A stretch of 64,000 bases of DNA, taken from assembly GCA_019634915.1 (NCBI GenBank), contig JAHCAN010000007.1, forward strand, positions 46,917-110,916, written 5' to 3'. This document shows, in pieces, positions 6,377 through 11,997 of this stretch. The DNA is from Steroidobacteraceae bacterium (lineage in GTDB: Bacteria > Pseudomonadota > Gammaproteobacteria > Steroidobacterales > Steroidobacteraceae). The position numbers and the translations under genes were made by a program. The notes beneath the pieces were generated by a model. It worked only from the letters and a program-made list of their open reading frames with translations. It was not told the origin of the DNA and did not search any database. Position 1 is the first letter of the stretch; each line of letters starts with the position of its first letter.

Positions 6377-7072
6377 ATGTACACGCTCCACATCGCCAAC
6401 AAGAACTACTCTTCCTGGTCGTTGCGTCCCTGGGTGCTGATGCGCGAGCTCGGCATTGCCTTCGAGGAGCATCTCGTGCCTTTCGACGACGCCCCGGCCT
6501 GGGAGGCGTACCGGCGGATTTCACCGTCGGGCAAGGTGCCCTGTCTCGTCGACGGCGACGTCACCGTTTGGGATTCGCTCGCGATCACCGAATATCTCGC
6601 GGAACGGCACGAAGGCGTCTGGCCCGCCGACGCCGGCGCGCGCGCCTGGGCGCGCAGCGCCGCGGCGGAAATGCACTCGGGCTTCGCCGAGCTGCGCGAG
6701 CGCTGCTCGATGAGCTGCGGCCTGAGGGTCCGCCTGCACGACATCACGCCCGCGCTGCAGCGGGACATCGATCGTATCGACGCACTGTGGAACCACGGTC
6801 TCGCGCGCTTCGGCGGACCCTTCCTGGCCGGCCAGGCGCCGACGGCCGTTGACGCGTTCTATGCGCCGGTGGCGTTCCGGATCCAGACGTTCTCGCTGAA
6901 GCTGAGCCCGGTCTCCATGGCCTGGGTGTCGCAGATGCTGGCTCGCGAAGCGATGCAGGCCTGGTATCGGGAAGCCCTGGCCGAAACGTTCCGCGAGGAA
7001 GCGCACGACGCCGACACTGCCCGCTACGGCACCGTGCTGCAGGATCTGCGCGTTCCGGCGCAGGCTGGCTAG
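6377..7072 (+). CDS. Glutathione S-transferase family protein
   Basis: A 231-residue cytosolic GST. The N-terminus MYTLHIANKNYSSWSLRPW carries the Ser-rich active-site loop typical of theta/zeta-like bacterial GSTs (Ser12-Ser13). GKVPCLVDGD is the cis-Pro region and VWDSLAITEYL the glutathione-binding turn. The helical domain includes AEMHSGFAELRERCSMSCG, a pattern common in this subgroup. The ATG at 6377 is the first start after the tRNA terminator; upstream in-frame ATGs lie inside the tRNA and were not used. It is convergent with the PrnB-like gene and overlaps its 3' end by four bases. Substrate unknown. Confidence 0.88.
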   Translation: MYTLHIANKNYSSWSLRPWVLMRELGIAFEEHLVPFDDAPAWEAYRRISPSGKVPCLVDGDVTVWDSLAITEYLAERHEGVWPADAGARAWARSAAAEMHSGFAELRERCSMSCGLRVRLHDITPALQRDIDRIDALWNHGLARFGGPFLAGQAPTAVDAFYAPVAFRIQTFSLKLSPVSMAWVSQMLAREAMQAWYREALAETFREEAHDADTARYGTVLQDLRVPAQAG

Positions 7073-8265
7073 CGGCCGAGCTTCGCGCGCAGCCGCGCGA
7101 GGTCGGCGTGGCGCGTGGCCAGGTCGTCGCGCGGCGCAGCGCAACGCAGGTCGCGCAATATCTCGAGGGCGCGCAGCAGCACCGGCAGCGGCGGCCCGCT
7201 CGCGGTGAGACCCTGCTGGTGCCGCGCATCGAGCGTGCGCGCCGGATGCTCGATGAAGCGTGCAACCAGCTGATCGTGATGCTGGCGCGCGGTGTGCGCG
7301 TAGCGCTCACAGGTATCGAGGAACGCGCGGGCGTTCGCCCCGACCCAGGGGCCACCGGGTTCACCCGAGTCGAGCAGTCGCAGGAATTCGTCGAGCAGGC
7401 TGCGCCGGGTCATGCAATCGCGCAGGCGTGCCTGGTCGGGCGGCAGCATGAACAGCATCTTGTCGACCAGCAGCTGCGCATAATAAGGATCGCTCGCCTG
7501 GCACAGGCCGAGCAGCAGGTCGATTTCATTGATGCCGGAGAAGTCGCCGGCGTTCGCGCCCCGATACTCGAAGCGCCCGACGCGGTAGGGCTTGTAGTAG
7601 GGGCGCACGCTGTAGAAGAAGCGCTCGACGTCGAGCTGTGCGAACAGCCGCTCGTTGCAGCGAAGCACCGCGTCCAGTGCCTGTTGCGCGGCTTCGAACA
7701 GCTCGGCCACGATTGCGCTGGTGACGCCGATCGGCACGATGCGGCCGAGCGCGTCAGCGGCACGCTGGAAGGCGAGGATGCCGCGCGTGTTCTCGTCGAG
7801 GAACAGGATCTCGTCGGGCAAGCGCGTGAAGCTCTTGCGCAGCCCGCCGATCGCGAGATTGTGCGTGGCGAGGTGGCCGGTCGCGAAGCGCGGCGCCATG
7901 CCGAGCGAGGCACCGACGTGCAGCGCGAGCGAGGAGGCCTCGCGAAACGGCGAGCGCTCTTCGCGCGCAGGGTTGGTCAGCTCATGGCGGCGCAGCGCGC
8001 CGAGATAGAGGCCGACGCTGCCCAGCACACCGAACGCGCTGTCGAAGCCGTCGCCGGTATTGCCTTCGCGCAGCAGCCCGACCACGTAGGTCTGGCCCTC
8101 GTCCCGGATCGCGGCCTTGATCGGATCGCCGATGCCGTCGACGTTGGCGCGGTCGTCCTGCGCGAAGTACAGCTCTTCCAGTGCCGTGTTCATGTCGGCG
8201 AAGCCGCTGCGGATCCAGTGATCGAATGCCTCGGCCTTGCTGCTCATCACCCCATTCAGCAACAT
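7069..8265 (-). CDS. PrnB-like (DUF1864) member of the TDO/IDO heme superfamily
   Basis: A 398-residue protein resembling monodechloroaminopyrrolnitrin synthase PrnB, the pyrrolnitrin enzyme that rearranges 7-chlorotryptophan and shares the fold of tryptophan 2,3- and indoleamine 2,3-dioxygenases. The most telling blocks are VRPYYKPYRVGRFEYRG near the middle, GINEIDLLLGLC and LLVDKMLFMLPPDQARLRDC. His-rich helices (ALHVGASLG, ATGHLATHNLAIGG) could hold the heme ligand, but I cannot say which His. ATG 8265 (MLLNGVMSSK) is chosen; ATG 8247 is equally possible because neither has a clear ribosome site. It is divergent from a kynureninase-like gene, which strengthens the idea of tryptophan-like substrate chemistry. 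No halogenase is nearby, so pyrrolnitrin itself is not implied. Confidence 0.75.
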   Translation of the reverse strand: MLLNGVMSSKAEAFDHWIRSGFADMNTALEELYFAQDDRANVDGIGDPIKAAIRDEGQTYVVGLLREGNTGDGFDSAFGVLGSVGLYLGALRRHELTNPAREERSPFREASSLALHVGASLGMAPRFATGHLATHNLAIGGLRKSFTRLPDEILFLDENTRGILAFQRAADALGRIVPIGVTSAIVAELFEAAQQALDAVLRCNERLFAQLDVERFFYSVRPYYKPYRVGRFEYRGANAGDFSGINEIDLLLGLCQASDPYYAQLLVDKMLFMLPPDQARLRDCMTRRSLLDEFLRLLDSGEPGGPWVGANARAFLDTCERYAHTARQHHDQLVARFIEHPARTLDARHQQGLTASGPPLPVLLRALEILRDLRCAAPRDDLATRHADLARLRAKLGR

Positions 8266-8310
8266 TCGCCGGCCCCCGCGCAAGGGGCCTGCGCGCCCCG
8301 CGCGCGGGCC

Positions 8311-9438
8311 ATGTACAGTAGCGCTGCCGTGAAGGACCACTTCACATTGCCTGCCGGGCACTACCTGCTGTCCCACTCGGTCGGCTGCGCACCGCGCGGT
8401 CTGCAGTCGGCGCTGGAGAAGGACTGGTTCGGGCCCTGGCAGCGCAGCGGCGGTGAGGCCTGGCCAGAGTGGCTCGCGGTGCTCGCGCGCTTTCGCGAAG
8501 TCATCGCGACGCTGCTCGGCGGTGAAGCCGCCTGCGTCTGCCCGCAGGTGAACGTGTCTTCCGGTCTCGTGAAACTGCTGCACGGCCTCGCGCCCGACAC
8601 GCGCCGCCGCAGGATCGTGCTGTGCGAGGAAGACTTCCCGTCGCTCGGCTTCGTCGCGGCCGCGGCGCGGCGTGCGGGCCTCGAGCCCGATTTCATCCCG
8701 CGCGGGCCCGAGCCGCAGCGGATCGACGGCTGGGCGCGCCGGCTCGATGCGTCCTGCCGGGTCGCGATCATCACGCACGCCTTCTCGAACCGCAGCGCGC
8801 GCCTGCCGGTGCGCGAGATCACGGCGCTGTGCCGCGAACGCGGCGTGGTTTCGGTCGTCGACGTGGCGCAGACCGCCGGCGCGATCCCGATCGACGTGAC
8901 GCAGTGGTCGGCCGACTTCGTGCTCGGTTCCTGCATCAAGTTCCTGTGCGGCGGGCCGGGTGCCGGCTTCCTGTGGGCGTCGCGGGAGGCGATCGCCGCG
9001 TCGCGGCCGCTCGACGTGGGTTGGTTCTCGCACGCGGATCCCGGGGAGTTCGACATCCGCCGGTTCCGCTTTGCCGACGATGCGCTGCGTTTCCTCGGCG
9101 GCACGCCGTCGATCGTGCCGTTCGCGGCGGCGGCGTTTTCGGTCGCGGTGCTGCTGCGGATCGGCATCGGGCGCATCCACGAGCACAACCAGGCGCTGAT
9201 CGGCTATTTGCTGGACAGCCTTCCGGCCGCGGATATCGCCTCCGAGCCCGACGCCGGGCGCCGGGGCAATACGTTGCTGTTGCGCGTGGCCGACGCCGAC
9301 AGGGCCCTGGCGCGACTGCGCGCAGCGGGGGTCTTCGCCGATCAGCGCGAGGGCTGCCTGCGCGTCTCGCCGCACATCTACAACGACCGGGCCGACATCG
9401 ACGCGCTGCTCGCGGCCGTCCGCCTCGCGCACGCCTGA
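8311..9438 (+). CDS. Kynureninase-like class V PLP enzyme
   Basis: A 375-residue fold-type I PLP enzyme. The cofactor lysine is Lys210 in SCIKFLCGGPGAGFLW, the kynureninase-type GPGA block. The phosphate- and ring-binding parts are NVSSGLVKLLHG (about 80-90), ITHAFSNRSARLPVREI and VVDVAQTAGAIPIDV, whose Asp would pair with the pyridine nitrogen. True kynureninases are somewhat longer (about 410) and carry slightly different active-site blocks, so this may act on a kynurenine analogue. Start ATG 8311 is used; a GTG at 8329 is possible. It is divergent from the PrnB-like gene (45-base gap) and 47 bases ahead of a methyltransferase. The PLP family is sure, kynurenine as substrate is inference. 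Confidence 0.75.
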   Translation: MYSSAAVKDHFTLPAGHYLLSHSVGCAPRGLQSALEKDWFGPWQRSGGEAWPEWLAVLARFREVIATLLGGEAACVCPQVNVSSGLVKLLHGLAPDTRRRRIVLCEEDFPSLGFVAAAARRAGLEPDFIPRGPEPQRIDGWARRLDASCRVAIITHAFSNRSARLPVREITALCRERGVVSVVDVAQTAGAIPIDVTQWSADFVLGSCIKFLCGGPGAGFLWASREAIAASRPLDVGWFSHADPGEFDIRRFRFADDALRFLGGTPSIVPFAAAAFSVAVLLRIGIGRIHEHNQALIGYLLDSLPAADIASEPDAGRRGNTLLLRVADADRALARLRAAGVFADQREGCLRVSPHIYNDRADIDALLAAVRLAHA

Positions 9439-9448
9439 TGCGGCGTGG

Positions 9449-9478
9449 TTGCGGCTCGGACGAAGGCCCGACTAGGAT
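9449..9478 (+). promoter_or_regulatory. Promoter giving a possibly leaderless methyltransferase mRNA
   Basis: TTGCGG (9449-9454) and TAGGAT (9473-9478) are 18 bases apart. The ATG at 9486 lies seven bases after the -10 box, just where transcription should begin, and no ribosome site precedes it. Confidence 0.45.
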
Positions 9479-9485
9479 CGGCCGC

Positions 9486-10664
9486 ATGTACGACACCGCA
9501 GAACAGACCCCGGCCGATCACCTGCTGCACCCCGATCTCGACGAGCGGGGACGCCAGGCGTTCGCGAAACACTTGCGACAGTTCGTGTTCACGGCGGCGC
9601 GCGGCGCGGCGCAGAACGCCTTTGCACAACGTGTCGCCCCCGGGCTCGCGCAGGCCGATCCGGCGGCAGCCCGGGATCGCAAGCGCGTGCGTGCGGCGCT
9701 GGTCGAAGAGCCGGAGTACCAGTTCTTCTCCGACCTGCACCGCATCAGCCAGGAGCAGATCTGGAATTCCTCCGCCGATACTGTCGAGCGCGAGACGGCG
9801 GCGCTGCGCGAGGCTTTCCTTGCGATCCGCAAGCCGAAGGGCTCGCTGAAGCTCGATCCGGCGCTCGAGGTACCCGAGTACCTGCGCCGCATGGATACGC
9901 ACTGCATGCCGGGCAGCTATTACACCGACTGGGTCGAGAACGACCTGACGAACGGTGCGATGTACGAACGCGGCGGCTTTCTCTATACGCCGGGCGCCGG
10001 GCCGGCGACCGATGGCGCGGGGCGCACGAGCCTCGAGTTCCTGCGCGCGCACCTGCCGGGTTTCACGCCGCAGCGCATCCTCGACCTCGGTTGCGGTACC
10101 TGCAGCCCGCTGATGGCCTGGGCGCGCGCGTTTCCGGACGCCGAGATCCATGGCCTCGACGTCGGCGCGCCGCTGCTGCGCTACGCGCACCTGCGCGCGG
10201 AGACACAGGGGGTTGCGCTGCACCTGAAGCAGGCGGATGCCACGGCGACCGGCTACGACAGCGGCTACTTCGATCTCGTGACCTCGCACATCATGTTCCA
10301 CGAAACCGAGGCCGAGCCGATTCCGGCAATCCTCGCCGAGGCGTATCGCGTGCTGAAGCCGGGCGGGGCGCTGCTGATCGTCGACCTGCCGGATGCGGGG
10401 CGCATCCCCGATGTATTCCAGCAGGTCGTGTTCGATGGCGATGCCTATTACAACAACGAACACTTCTGGATGAAGATGCACGACATCGACTGGGTCGCGC
10501 AGCTGCGCAGGGCCGGCTTCCCCGAAGGCAGCATCGAGATCGGTTTCGCGCCGATGCAGATGTACGTGCCGCCGACGGCGAAGAATGCCGAGGCCGGATG
10601 GAGCACGGGGCGCTTCGGCTTCTTCGCCGCGCTCGCCCGCAAGGGCGCGGAGCGCGCGCAGTGA
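9486..10664 (+). CDS. Class I SAM-dependent methyltransferase
   Basis: A 392-residue protein with an N-terminal extension of about 190 residues and a C-terminal Rossmann methyltransferase domain. Motif I is LDLGCGTCSP at 199-208, followed by EIHGLDVGAPLL, a KQADATATGYDSGYFDLVTSHIMFHE block (motif IV region) and YRVLKPGGALLIVDLPD, the usual post-IV strand. The N-terminal part (EYQFFSDLHRISQEQIWNSS and later DTHCMPGSYY) is shared, from memory, with a group of uncharacterised bacterial methyltransferases acting on small metabolites. The downstream coiled-coil gene overlaps it by four bases. Position between a kynureninase-like gene and a periplasmic propeller suggests modification of an amino-acid-derived compound. 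Methyl acceptor unknown. Confidence 0.85.
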   Translation: MYDTAEQTPADHLLHPDLDERGRQAFAKHLRQFVFTAARGAAQNAFAQRVAPGLAQADPAAARDRKRVRAALVEEPEYQFFSDLHRISQEQIWNSSADTVERETAALREAFLAIRKPKGSLKLDPALEVPEYLRRMDTHCMPGSYYTDWVENDLTNGAMYERGGFLYTPGAGPATDGAGRTSLEFLRAHLPGFTPQRILDLGCGTCSPLMAWARAFPDAEIHGLDVGAPLLRYAHLRAETQGVALHLKQADATATGYDSGYFDLVTSHIMFHETEAEPIPAILAEAYRVLKPGGALLIVDLPDAGRIPDVFQQVVFDGDAYYNNEHFWMKMHDIDWVAQLRRAGFPEGSIEIGFAPMQMYVPPTAKNAEAGWSTGRFGFFAALARKGAERAQ

Positions 10665-10951
10665 GCGAGGTGCGGATCCCGCGCGTCGCGCACGGCGAGC
10701 GCACCGTGTTCAGCCCCGGCGGCGAGGAAGTCAACCAGCTGCTCGCTGCCGTTACGGCGCTGACCGCGGAGGTCGCCGTGCTGCGCCAGCGGATCAAGGC
10801 GCTCGAGGCGCTCGCGGCGAAGGCCGGGACGCTGCCCGACGGTGCGGTCGACCGCTACGAGCCCGGCGTGGCCGAGCGAGAGGAGCAGGCGGCGTGGCAC
10901 GAGAAGCTGTTGCGCCGTGTTTTTTACCGTTACATCGAGAGAGAATCATGA
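10661..10951 (+). CDS. Small coiled-coil protein, 96 aa
   Basis: The GTG at 10661 overlaps the methyltransferase stop (GTGA) and the gene's own TGA overlaps the ATG of the following TolB-like gene. The product (MSEVRIPRVAHGERTVFSPG) has a heptad-rich helix at about 24-55 (LLAAVTALTAEVAVLRQRIK) and a charged C-terminus ending YIERES. It has no signal peptide. The tight overlaps on both sides argue it is a real gene and a partner of its neighbours, perhaps a scaffold. Function not recognised. Confidence 0.7.
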   Translation: MSEVRIPRVAHGERTVFSPGGEEVNQLLAAVTALTAEVAVLRQRIKALEALAAKAGTLPDGAVDRYEPGVAEREEQAAWHEKLLRRVFYRYIERES

Positions 10952-11997
10952 TGCGAAGGGTGCTCGGGGCGGCATTGTTGGCGGGGGTCTGCGCGACGGG
11001 GGTCGCGGTCGCGGCCAAACCGGTGGCCAGGGTGCCGGCGGTGAAGATGCATCCGCAGGAGCTGCCGGTCTGGAAGGTGCCGAATCTCGGCATCGGCGGC
11101 GAGGCGTATTACGCGCCCGACAGCTACCACGTGATCGCGCAGATGCAGGATCCGGAGGCGACCAAGCCCGGTGATCCGCGCGCCAAGTATGGCTCGTTCA
11201 CCTACACGTTCACCGACCAGGGGACCGAGATCCGCCGCATCAACGATCGCGGCCAGGATGCCTGTTCATTCTTCTTCCCGGACATGAAGCACCTGGTGTG
11301 GACGTCGACGCGCGACAATCCGCACCTGCCGGTCGGCAGCTGGGATGACGACCCGAACTACCCGAAAGGTGCCGAGCTCTACGTGTCGGATCTCGAGGGC
11401 GGCAATGTCCACCGCCTGACGCACAACGAGTACTACGACGCCGAGGTGACCGTGTCGCCGAACGGCGAGTGGATCCTGTTCGGCCGCCAGATCGACGGCA
11501 AGATGGACCTGTGGCGCATGCGGCCGGACGGCAGCGAGCAGCAGCAGATCACCTTCACCGACGACTGGCAGGAAGGCGGCGCCGCCTATCTGCCCGACAA
11601 CGAGACGATCCTCTACCGGGCGTGGAAGCGCAGCGAGTACGGCAAGTTGAAGCCGCTGCCGATGACGCTGTTCACGATCAAGCACGACGGCACGGGCCTC
11701 AAGCAGATCACCTTCACGAACGACATGAACTGGGCACCGTTCCCCGCGCCGGACGGCCGCCACTACGTGTTCGTGCGCAATGTCGACGGCGACAATCGCG
11801 AGGTCTTCCTCGGCGATTTCGAGGGTGGCGAGCCGCTGCGGCTCACCTACAACGACGGCTTCGACGGCTTCCCGTCGGTCTCGCCCGACGGCACGAAGAT
11901 GCTGTTCACGCGCAAGCACGAGTCCGAGGTGGGCGTGTTCACCTACGTGATGGACATTTCCTCGCTCGGCGTCGGGCCGCGCAAGGCGGAGCAGTGA
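10948..11997 (+). CDS. TolB-like PD40 beta-propeller protein, exported
   Basis: A 349-residue periplasmic protein. Residues 1-22 (MMRRVLGAALLAGVCATGVA) are a Sec signal peptide. The mature part contains repeated WD40-like PD40 blades with the SPDG/SPNGEWILF signature: DMKHLVWTSTRD, VSPNGEWILFGR, LPDNETILYRAW, APDGRHYVFVR, VSPDGTKMLFTRK. TolB itself is longer and has an N-terminal domain absent here, so this is a propeller-only relative, probably a binding or scaffold protein. The ATG at 10948 overlaps the coiled-coil gene's stop; the ATG three bases on is an alternative. It ends the kynureninase/methyltransferase operon. Confidence 0.85.
   Translation: MMRRVLGAALLAGVCATGVAVAAKPVARVPAVKMHPQELPVWKVPNLGIGGEAYYAPDSYHVIAQMQDPEATKPGDPRAKYGSFTYTFTDQGTEIRRINDRGQDACSFFFPDMKHLVWTSTRDNPHLPVGSWDDDPNYPKGAELYVSDLEGGNVHRLTHNEYYDAEVTVSPNGEWILFGRQIDGKMDLWRMRPDGSEQQQITFTDDWQEGGAAYLPDNETILYRAWKRSEYGKLKPLPMTLFTIKHDGTGLKQITFTNDMNWAPFPAPDGRHYVFVRNVDGDNREVFLGDFEGGEPLRLTYNDGFDGFPSVSPDGTKMLFTRKHESEVGVFTYVMDISSLGVGPRKAEQ

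Follow-up and report, generated by a model that had tools for sequence, protein, structure and literature searches.

What does a gene for a tryptophan-oxygenase-like heme protein do next to one for a kynureninase-like enzyme, in a bacterium that already has canonical genes of both kinds elsewhere? This question is raised by a locus in a 64,000-nucleotide stretch of a Steroidobacteraceae genome (the window: assembly GCA_019634915.1, contig JAHCAN010000007.1, positions 46,917 to 110,916; the genome counts 2.78 Mb in 58 contigs and is 79% complete), where a PrnB-like gene of the TDO/IDO superfamily is divergent from a gene for a class V pyridoxal 5'-phosphate (PLP) enzyme. The initial annotation had joined both to a methyltransferase gene in a possible new locus for a decorated tryptophan-derived metabolite. 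We find that the PrnB-like and kynureninase-like genes form a real, recurring unit and not a chance neighbourhood. From comparative sequence evidence, we consider it rather probable that they specify an alternative two-step, kynurenine-type module for tryptophan degradation, with a heme protein of the Shewanella SO4414 type in place of TDO.

We searched for relatives of both genes. In one genome collection, 414 stretches encoded PrnB-like relatives; among the best 80 of the 414, which were kept, the best-matching genes in named records came from gammaproteobacterial metagenome-assembled genomes, Steroidobacteraceae and Sphingomonas. On this high-GC DNA, a self-trained gene caller chose antisense frames, and a caller initialised with known genes took its place; since this second caller missed the PrnB-like gene at 7 of 132 loci (leaving 125 with a called gene), loci were counted from six-frame hidden Markov model searches, which found it at 132/132 loci (window included), 95 of them distinct by their PrnB-like core. 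A close relative of the window PLP enzyme (type A, above 480 bits in this count) lay directly beside the PrnB-like gene at 19 of the 95 distinct loci, a third type at 3 (L061, L086, L087) and a type B enzyme at 3, with type B within 8 kb at 9. The genes are divergent in the PLP subclade of the window (window, L021, L157, L161, L189, L317) and at the third-type loci L086 and L087, and co-directional at the remaining type A loci, overlapping by 4 bases in L019, L060 and L072.

Searches with a PLP profile gave the same association from the other side. In two genome sets, all 17 genomes with close PLP relatives had a TDO-superfamily oxygenase gene alongside, PrnB-like in 10 and a short TDO-family protein in 7. 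Among 217 genomes of the window's family, six matches exceeded 500 bits (503-568), followed by a gap down to 237 bits, and all six, including the window, were directly beside a PrnB-like gene. In 397 genomes of the Novosphingobium rosa family, 11 close matches were found (444-548 bits, E<=1e-80), 4 of which adjoined a PrnB-like gene (including G945) and 7 directly followed a TDO-family gene; G604, G605 and G650 (by its coordinates the source of L161) had been chosen through their PrnB-like gene, and the remaining 8 split into 7 with the TDO-family gene and 1 with the PrnB-like gene. Up to 9 candidates were scored per genome for the PLP enzyme in the window's family, up to 5 in the Novosphingobium rosa family and up to 8 for the methyltransferase. 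The PrnB-like gene of G945 (L309 / L317) reads in two frames, from a broken gene or a sequencing error.

The association was also visible at the level of whole genomes. A PrnB-like gene was present in 48 of the 217 genomes of the window's family (in G447 as a fragment with a stop, in G468 as a match cut by a contig end), and a type A or second-tier PLP match (at least 195 bits) in 41 of these 48 versus 8 of the 169 others (Fisher p 7e-29; 2.5e-8 within genus g18 and 9e-5 within g7, p values that ignore shared ancestry). We set the lower limit of the second tier (195-237 bits, 43 genomes) at the gap above 176 bits; type B and the third type (beside the PrnB-like gene in G502, G503 and G567) are mixed in it, matches on other contigs not being individually typed. 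Weaker matches (139-176 bits) occurred in 23 further genomes, one with a PrnB-like gene (G560), and no genome among the 217 held both PLP types at E<=1e-40.

In the seven TDO-linked genomes, a six-frame search of the fetched stretches found no PrnB-like gene, and in 7/7 a PF03301 protein of 248-258 aa (89-104 bits, cut-off 34.9) was encoded directly upstream of the PLP gene, co-directional and overlapping it by 4 bases; on a Novosphingobium plasmid (L325), a TDO-like gene ends 5 bases before the PLP gene (the plasmid records, which held no usable annotation, gave one PrnB-like and one PLP match). A PLP tree of 44 rows placed the TDO-linked rows among PrnB-linked rows and included a 13-row clade (97/94) of 7 TDO-linked rows, 5 PrnB-linked rows and the plasmid row; this argues that the oxygenase partner was exchanged. 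The PLP types were likewise interspersed in a PrnB-like tree of 53 of the 95 distinct loci, picked to cover all context types: L210 (type B) joined L189 (type A; 99/86), and an 8-row clade (100/99) consisted of L209, L217 and L220, all type B, and five type A rows. The forced changes on this tree numbered 5 for co-directional type A and 7 for type B, changes to and from loci without a PLP gene being counted too. While partner lineages change, each gene thus stays paired with one of the other kind, as expected for two successive pathway steps. This exchange suggests that the PrnB-like and the short TDO-family proteins feed the same PLP enzyme; it does not imply that their product is N-formylkynurenine.

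The TDO-like/PLP operon (L316, L318-L323, L325) apparently represents an uncharacterised TDO subgroup. By eye, 7/7 of the short proteins retain the HQ-motif His and the heme His, and 6/7 retain the Arg. In the PDB, the L318 protein matched the bacterial TDO 2NW7 best (94 bits), followed by the Cupriavidus-type 2NOX (71 bits), human TDO (about 50 bits) and two short entries that carry the name TDO (8VYY and 9CA3, 37 bits).

The window oxygenase is a member of the TDO/IDO/PrnB superfamily, of the SO4414 type and no PrnB orthologue. Its annotation as a PrnB (DUF1864) type protein was right as to family (PF08933, far above the cut-off of 27) but not as to orthology: it aligned over its full length with Shewanella SO4414 (1ZEE, 2NWB) at 460 bits versus 46.9 bits with PrnB of pyrrolnitrin biosynthesis, where residues 54-286 were aligned. 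Being of the SO4414 type, the protein need not follow PrnB chemistry, so that the remark that this chemistry is quite unlike that of TDO need not apply to it. The predicted model (mean pLDDT 84.3, with residues 122-124 and 230-234 under 50) gave, in Foldseek, TM scores of 0.92 to 2NWB, 0.58-0.66 to PrnB and 0.52-0.60 to IDO1. In a weak alignment with IDO1 (E 0.016), window H324 fell on the proximal heme ligand H346 (chain residue 349) and RGANAGDFSG on the AGASAGQSS loop; H324 was invariant in 10/10 relatives (alignment A1). The expected heme pocket is thus supported, by conservation of the IDO-type heme His and by the nearest solved structure holding heme (2NWB, released in 2006 as a 'putative 2,3-dioxygenase in complex with ferric heme'). 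SO4413, which adjoins SO4414, is a putative kynureninase. No functional description of SO4414, 1ZEE, 2NWB or DUF1864 was found in the literature searched, which mentioned DUF1864 in a coral genome table. The prnA, prnC and prnD families were absent from the seven genes scanned at the locus, to which that search was limited.

The PLP enzyme is a divergent relative of kynureninase. Besides the class V aminotransferase domain, KYNU_C scored just under its cut-off (25.4 versus 27 bits in Pfam), and none of the NCBIfam models shown reached its own. The best PDB sequence match was 1QZ9, kynureninase of Pseudomonas fluorescens, and a profile of 14 PLP relatives (A2) scored 165 bits on it versus 91 on SufS. 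K210, W238, T265 and R351, invariant in 14/14 of these rows, align with K227, W256, T282 and R375 of 1QZ9 (numbered along the chain), which in kynureninases serve as the PLP lysine, the ring-stacking Trp, the Thr and the carboxylate-binding Arg. His204 of 1QZ9 is replaced by Gln in the clade. The persulfide Cys of SufS is not conserved (the profile column is not Cys, and a Cys lies nearby in 2/14 rows). In a midpoint-rooted tree of 54 rows, the window enzyme belonged to a 21-row clade (95/89) that formed, with 16 canonical kynureninases, a 37-row branch (99/97) in which each group was its own clade; the sole IscS-type row, from the window genome, fell apart from it on a long branch. The annotated kinship with kynureninases, as opposed to cysteine desulfurases, was therefore borne out in the tree as far as that single row goes. 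As the 36 non-reference rows had been gathered for their nearness to PrnB-like genes, this tree alone cannot show the association of the two genes.

Genes around the pair in relatives point more to catabolism than to a new decorated metabolite. At four related loci (L162, L149, L210, L222), a PF04199 gene, from the family to which bacterial kynurenine formamidase belongs, stands in line with the PrnB-like gene; in L149, the PLP gene belongs to a different class V family (TIGR01976). At 5 of 45 loci drawn (L057, L062, L066, L076, L080), the PrnB-like gene has, within three genes, a cluster that includes a bifunctional FAD/FMN monooxygenase, and the one cluster monooxygenase tested matched salicylyl-CoA 5-hydroxylase/oxidoreductase (NF006101) at 1262 bits, an architecture also found in aminobenzoyl-CoA monooxygenase. 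In L156, on the contig of L057, the PrnB-like gene comes directly after such a cluster, overlapping it by 4 bases, and precedes a putative amino-acid permease gene. An Lrp/AsnC-type gene occurs within three genes of the PrnB-like gene at 14 of 125 loci (some duplicates; one member Pfam-confirmed) and, by eye, beside most TDO-like/PLP operons, with Pfam confirmation in L316, L318 and, beside the PrnB-like gene, L317. Several of those operons also have an amino-acid-permease-type gene. In P. aeruginosa, according to PMC12451312, the Lrp/AsnC-type regulator KynR controls kynA, kynB and kynU.

Other contexts were also seen. In the Parvularcula-type relatives L190, L199 and L228, a class I/II aminotransferase (Pfam-confirmed in L199) and not a class V enzyme is encoded beside the PrnB-like gene, and an apparent indolepyruvate oxidoreductase gene lies near it, by eye, in L190 and L199. 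L201 and L221 have an AMP-binding enzyme near the PrnB-like protein (directly adjacent and Pfam-confirmed in L201), possibly an activating or natural-product context.

Kynureninase chemistry requires a gamma-carbonyl, which a ring-opening dioxygenation supplies; a kynureninase-type partner in a degradation context favours ring opening. In the module that we favour, the SO4414-type heme protein would add O2 to the indole ring, with tryptophan or a close relative as substrate, and open that ring to an N-formylkynurenine-type compound, as TDO and IDO do. The PLP enzyme, as a divergent kynureninase, would then cut the side chain to give alanine and an anthranilate-type product, either directly or once a formamidase encoded at another place in the genome has removed the formyl group. 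A bolder version, which we hold as a tentative possibility, is that the SO4414-type DUF1864 proteins constitute, alongside TDO and IDO, a third lineage of indole-ring-opening dioxygenases that can replace, and be replaced by, the short TDO-family protein in operons, and that the paired kynureninase clade cleaves N-formylkynurenine (or a substituted kynurenine) directly, with no formamidase step.

Several observations weigh against a kynurenine-type module, at least as a simple substitute for the canonical route. A canonical TDO match was present in 44 of the 48 genomes with a PrnB-like gene (128 of the 169 others), which shows that the PrnB-like protein is no genome-wide replacement for TDO. 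The kynureninase model matched in 190 of the 217 genomes at 1e-10, in 181 above its cut-off. Because canonical TDO and kynureninase are so widespread, the module is mostly additional to the canonical pathway. The window genome itself has a canonical TDO (contig C12) and, adjoining each other on contig C29, a PF04199 cyclase and a canonical kynureninase. The annotated absence of a formamidase accordingly held for the window contig, which has no PF04199 match, but not for the genome, whose one match is that on C29 (PF04199 being the sole family searched). Neither TDO, nor kynureninase, nor the PLP profile gave a match in G028 (98% complete), which has a PrnB-like gene, and 61 of the 95 distinct loci have no such PLP gene in the DNA available for the locus (L073, with an adjacent class V gene of another family, TIGR01976, is counted among these). 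The PLP profile derives from PrnB-adjacent rows, related genomes are non-independent samples, and with all PLP matches at E<=1e-40 the genome contrast weakens to 42 of 48 versus 30 of 169 (p 5e-19, again ignoring shared ancestry). As for the proteins, the PLP enzyme scored 57.7 bits on the kynureninase model TIGR01814, far under its cut-off of 246.4 and slightly below its 70.8 bits on sufS (cut-off 475.1), and the Tyr that precedes the PLP lysine (Tyr226 of 1QZ9) is Ile, Val or Leu in its clade. The short TDO-family proteins reached 118-126 bits on TIGR03036 (cut-off 390.7; 5/5 tested, of the seven), and the seven, when aligned, lacked the GTGGS loop and a segment of canonical TDO and had a MarE-like SLxGR loop.

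Part of this evidence would fit the same module with a different chemistry, in which the oxygenase is a monooxygenase forming an oxindole or hydroxytryptophan from tryptophan or a modified tryptophan and the PLP reaction is changed. The model for it would be MarE, a heme monooxygenase of maremycin biosynthesis; PMC11904535 describes it as 2-oxindole-forming and sets it apart from TDO by its SLGGR loop and the missing helices F and G. The loop of the exchangeable TDO-family partner, the canonical TDO and kynureninase of the window genome and the lost Tyr all speak for this chemistry. We nevertheless judge it unlikely, as kynureninase's ring-stacking Trp, its Thr and its carboxylate Arg are retained in the PLP clade, some relatives lie near formamidase-family and CoA-dependent aromatic-degradation genes, and the L318 partner resembles bacterial TDO most. 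Chemistry of the PrnB type, which would rearrange the tryptophan ring to aminophenylpyrrole, is highly improbable: family and fold are shared with PrnB, yet both sequence and predicted fold are much nearer SO4414, and a kynureninase-like partner has no known role in the pyrrolnitrin route.

Two further explanations concern the partners of the oxygenase. If the PLP enzyme were a cysteine desulfurase or sulfur lyase, its place beside the PrnB-like gene would be due to chance. The sufS score goes in this direction, and kynureninase and cysteine desulfurases match the predicted fold equally well (best E 5e-23 to both); the family profile, the tree, the lack of a conserved persulfide Cys and the adjacency to a TDO-superfamily oxygenase in 17/17 genomes make this hardly tenable. 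A somewhat less remote idea, still very unlikely in our view, is that of the initial annotation, in which the methyltransferase joins the pair in making a methylated tryptophan-derived metabolite. In the window, the methyltransferase gene is co-directional with the PLP gene, lies 47 bases downstream of it and may share a transcript with it, yet it does not track the module. A methyltransferase relative lies near the PrnB-like gene at 2 of the 132 loci, the window and L060, where it is related (38%) and 4.7 kb away. The proposed co-occurrence thus survives for the PrnB-like and PLP genes and fails for the methyltransferase, and the idea of a decorated metabolite is left unsupported. The methyltransferase family is moreover multi-copy (53 of the 217 genomes, many of those in genus g13 having at least 8 copies), a 76% identical copy occurs in G004, a genome of the window's genus with no PrnB-like match, and related copies adjoin small coiled-coil proteins instead. 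The methyltransferase is therefore probably an unrelated neighbour, and the kynurenine-type degradation module remains the reading that we favour.

Coordinates of the whole locus are given in the table. All five genes first named are intact open reading frames with correctly assigned families (Pfam: PrnB PF08933, Aminotran_5, Methyltransf_25, PD40). The divergent gap of 45 bases applies to the upstream ATG, but the start that matches the N-terminus of relatives widens it to 63. Of the overlapping order, the two junctions of the coiled-coil gene stood, at 4 bases each, but not that between the PLP and methyltransferase genes.

Features of the locus, in window positions
Feature	Position	Strand	Evidence
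SO4414-type PrnB-family (PF08933) heme oxygenase gene	7069..8247	-	392 aa; 398 aa with ATG 8265; Pfam 531.6 bits, 460 bits to 1ZEE/2NWB
H324 codon, predicted proximal heme ligand	7276..7278	-	IDO1 alignment; invariant in 10/10 rows
Intergenic region between divergent genes, presumed promoters of both	8248..8310	.	63 bases (45 with upstream ATG)
Kynureninase-like class V PLP enzyme gene	8311..9438	+	375 aa; Aminotran_5 81.1 bits; best PDB sequence 1QZ9; tree place next to kynureninases
K210 codon, predicted PLP lysine	8938..8940	+	aligns with K227 of 1QZ9
Class I S-adenosylmethionine (SAM) methyltransferase gene, probably outside module	9486..10664	+	Methyltransf_25 74.1 bits
96-aa coiled-coil protein gene	10661..10951	+	weak coiled-coil-type matches below cut-off; similar small proteins adjoin related methyltransferases
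Exported PD40/TolB-like propeller gene	10948..11997	+	PD40 74.5 bits; near PrnB-like gene in window alone

Beside coiled-coil-looking proteins of about 100 aa, a SAM methyltransferase with an extended N-terminal region is found repeatedly (window 9486-10951; L302, L303, L304). In L302, it lies between two small proteins that match the window coiled-coil protein (BLAST, 38%); in L303 and L304, similar small proteins were seen beside it by eye. Among the 132 loci, the coiled-coil and propeller proteins are near the PrnB-like gene in the window alone. As parts of the pathway, the methyltransferase and the propeller are doubtful candidates.

These results propose a testable function for a type of protein with a heme-bound crystal structure and for its many relatives. 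If the favoured reading is true, a different branch of the heme-oxygenase superfamily would carry out the first step of a kynurenine route; were the substrate something other than plain tryptophan, the module would point to the degradation of an unknown indole amino acid. SO4414-type genes should not be read as a sign of pyrrolnitrin biosynthesis.

Among known systems, the kynA-kynB-kynU/KynR pathway of P. aeruginosa, as presented in PMC4938989 and PMC12451312, likewise combines a TDO-superfamily oxygenase with a kynureninase-type PLP enzyme, and shares with some relatives of the window module an Lrp/AsnC-type gene. In contrast to it, the window oxygenase comes from another branch of the superfamily, the PLP enzyme scores under the kynureninase cut-off, the locus has no PF04199 formamidase and no Lrp gene was seen beside the window pair. 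Pyrrolnitrin PrnB, whose binding mode has the amine as heme ligand (PMC11791213), has family and fold in common with the window oxygenase and is distant in sequence. The closest solved sequence to the PLP enzyme, P. fluorescens kynureninase, has its Lys227, Trp256, Thr282 and Arg375 kept in the window clade, unlike Tyr226 and His204. MarE is not known to have a kynureninase-like partner. With the TDO-family protein found beside seven of the PLP genes, it shares an SLxGR-type loop and the loss of a canonical TDO segment. Shewanella oneidensis SO4414, crystallised with ferric heme, is in sequence over its full length and in predicted fold the homologue that the window oxygenase most resembles.

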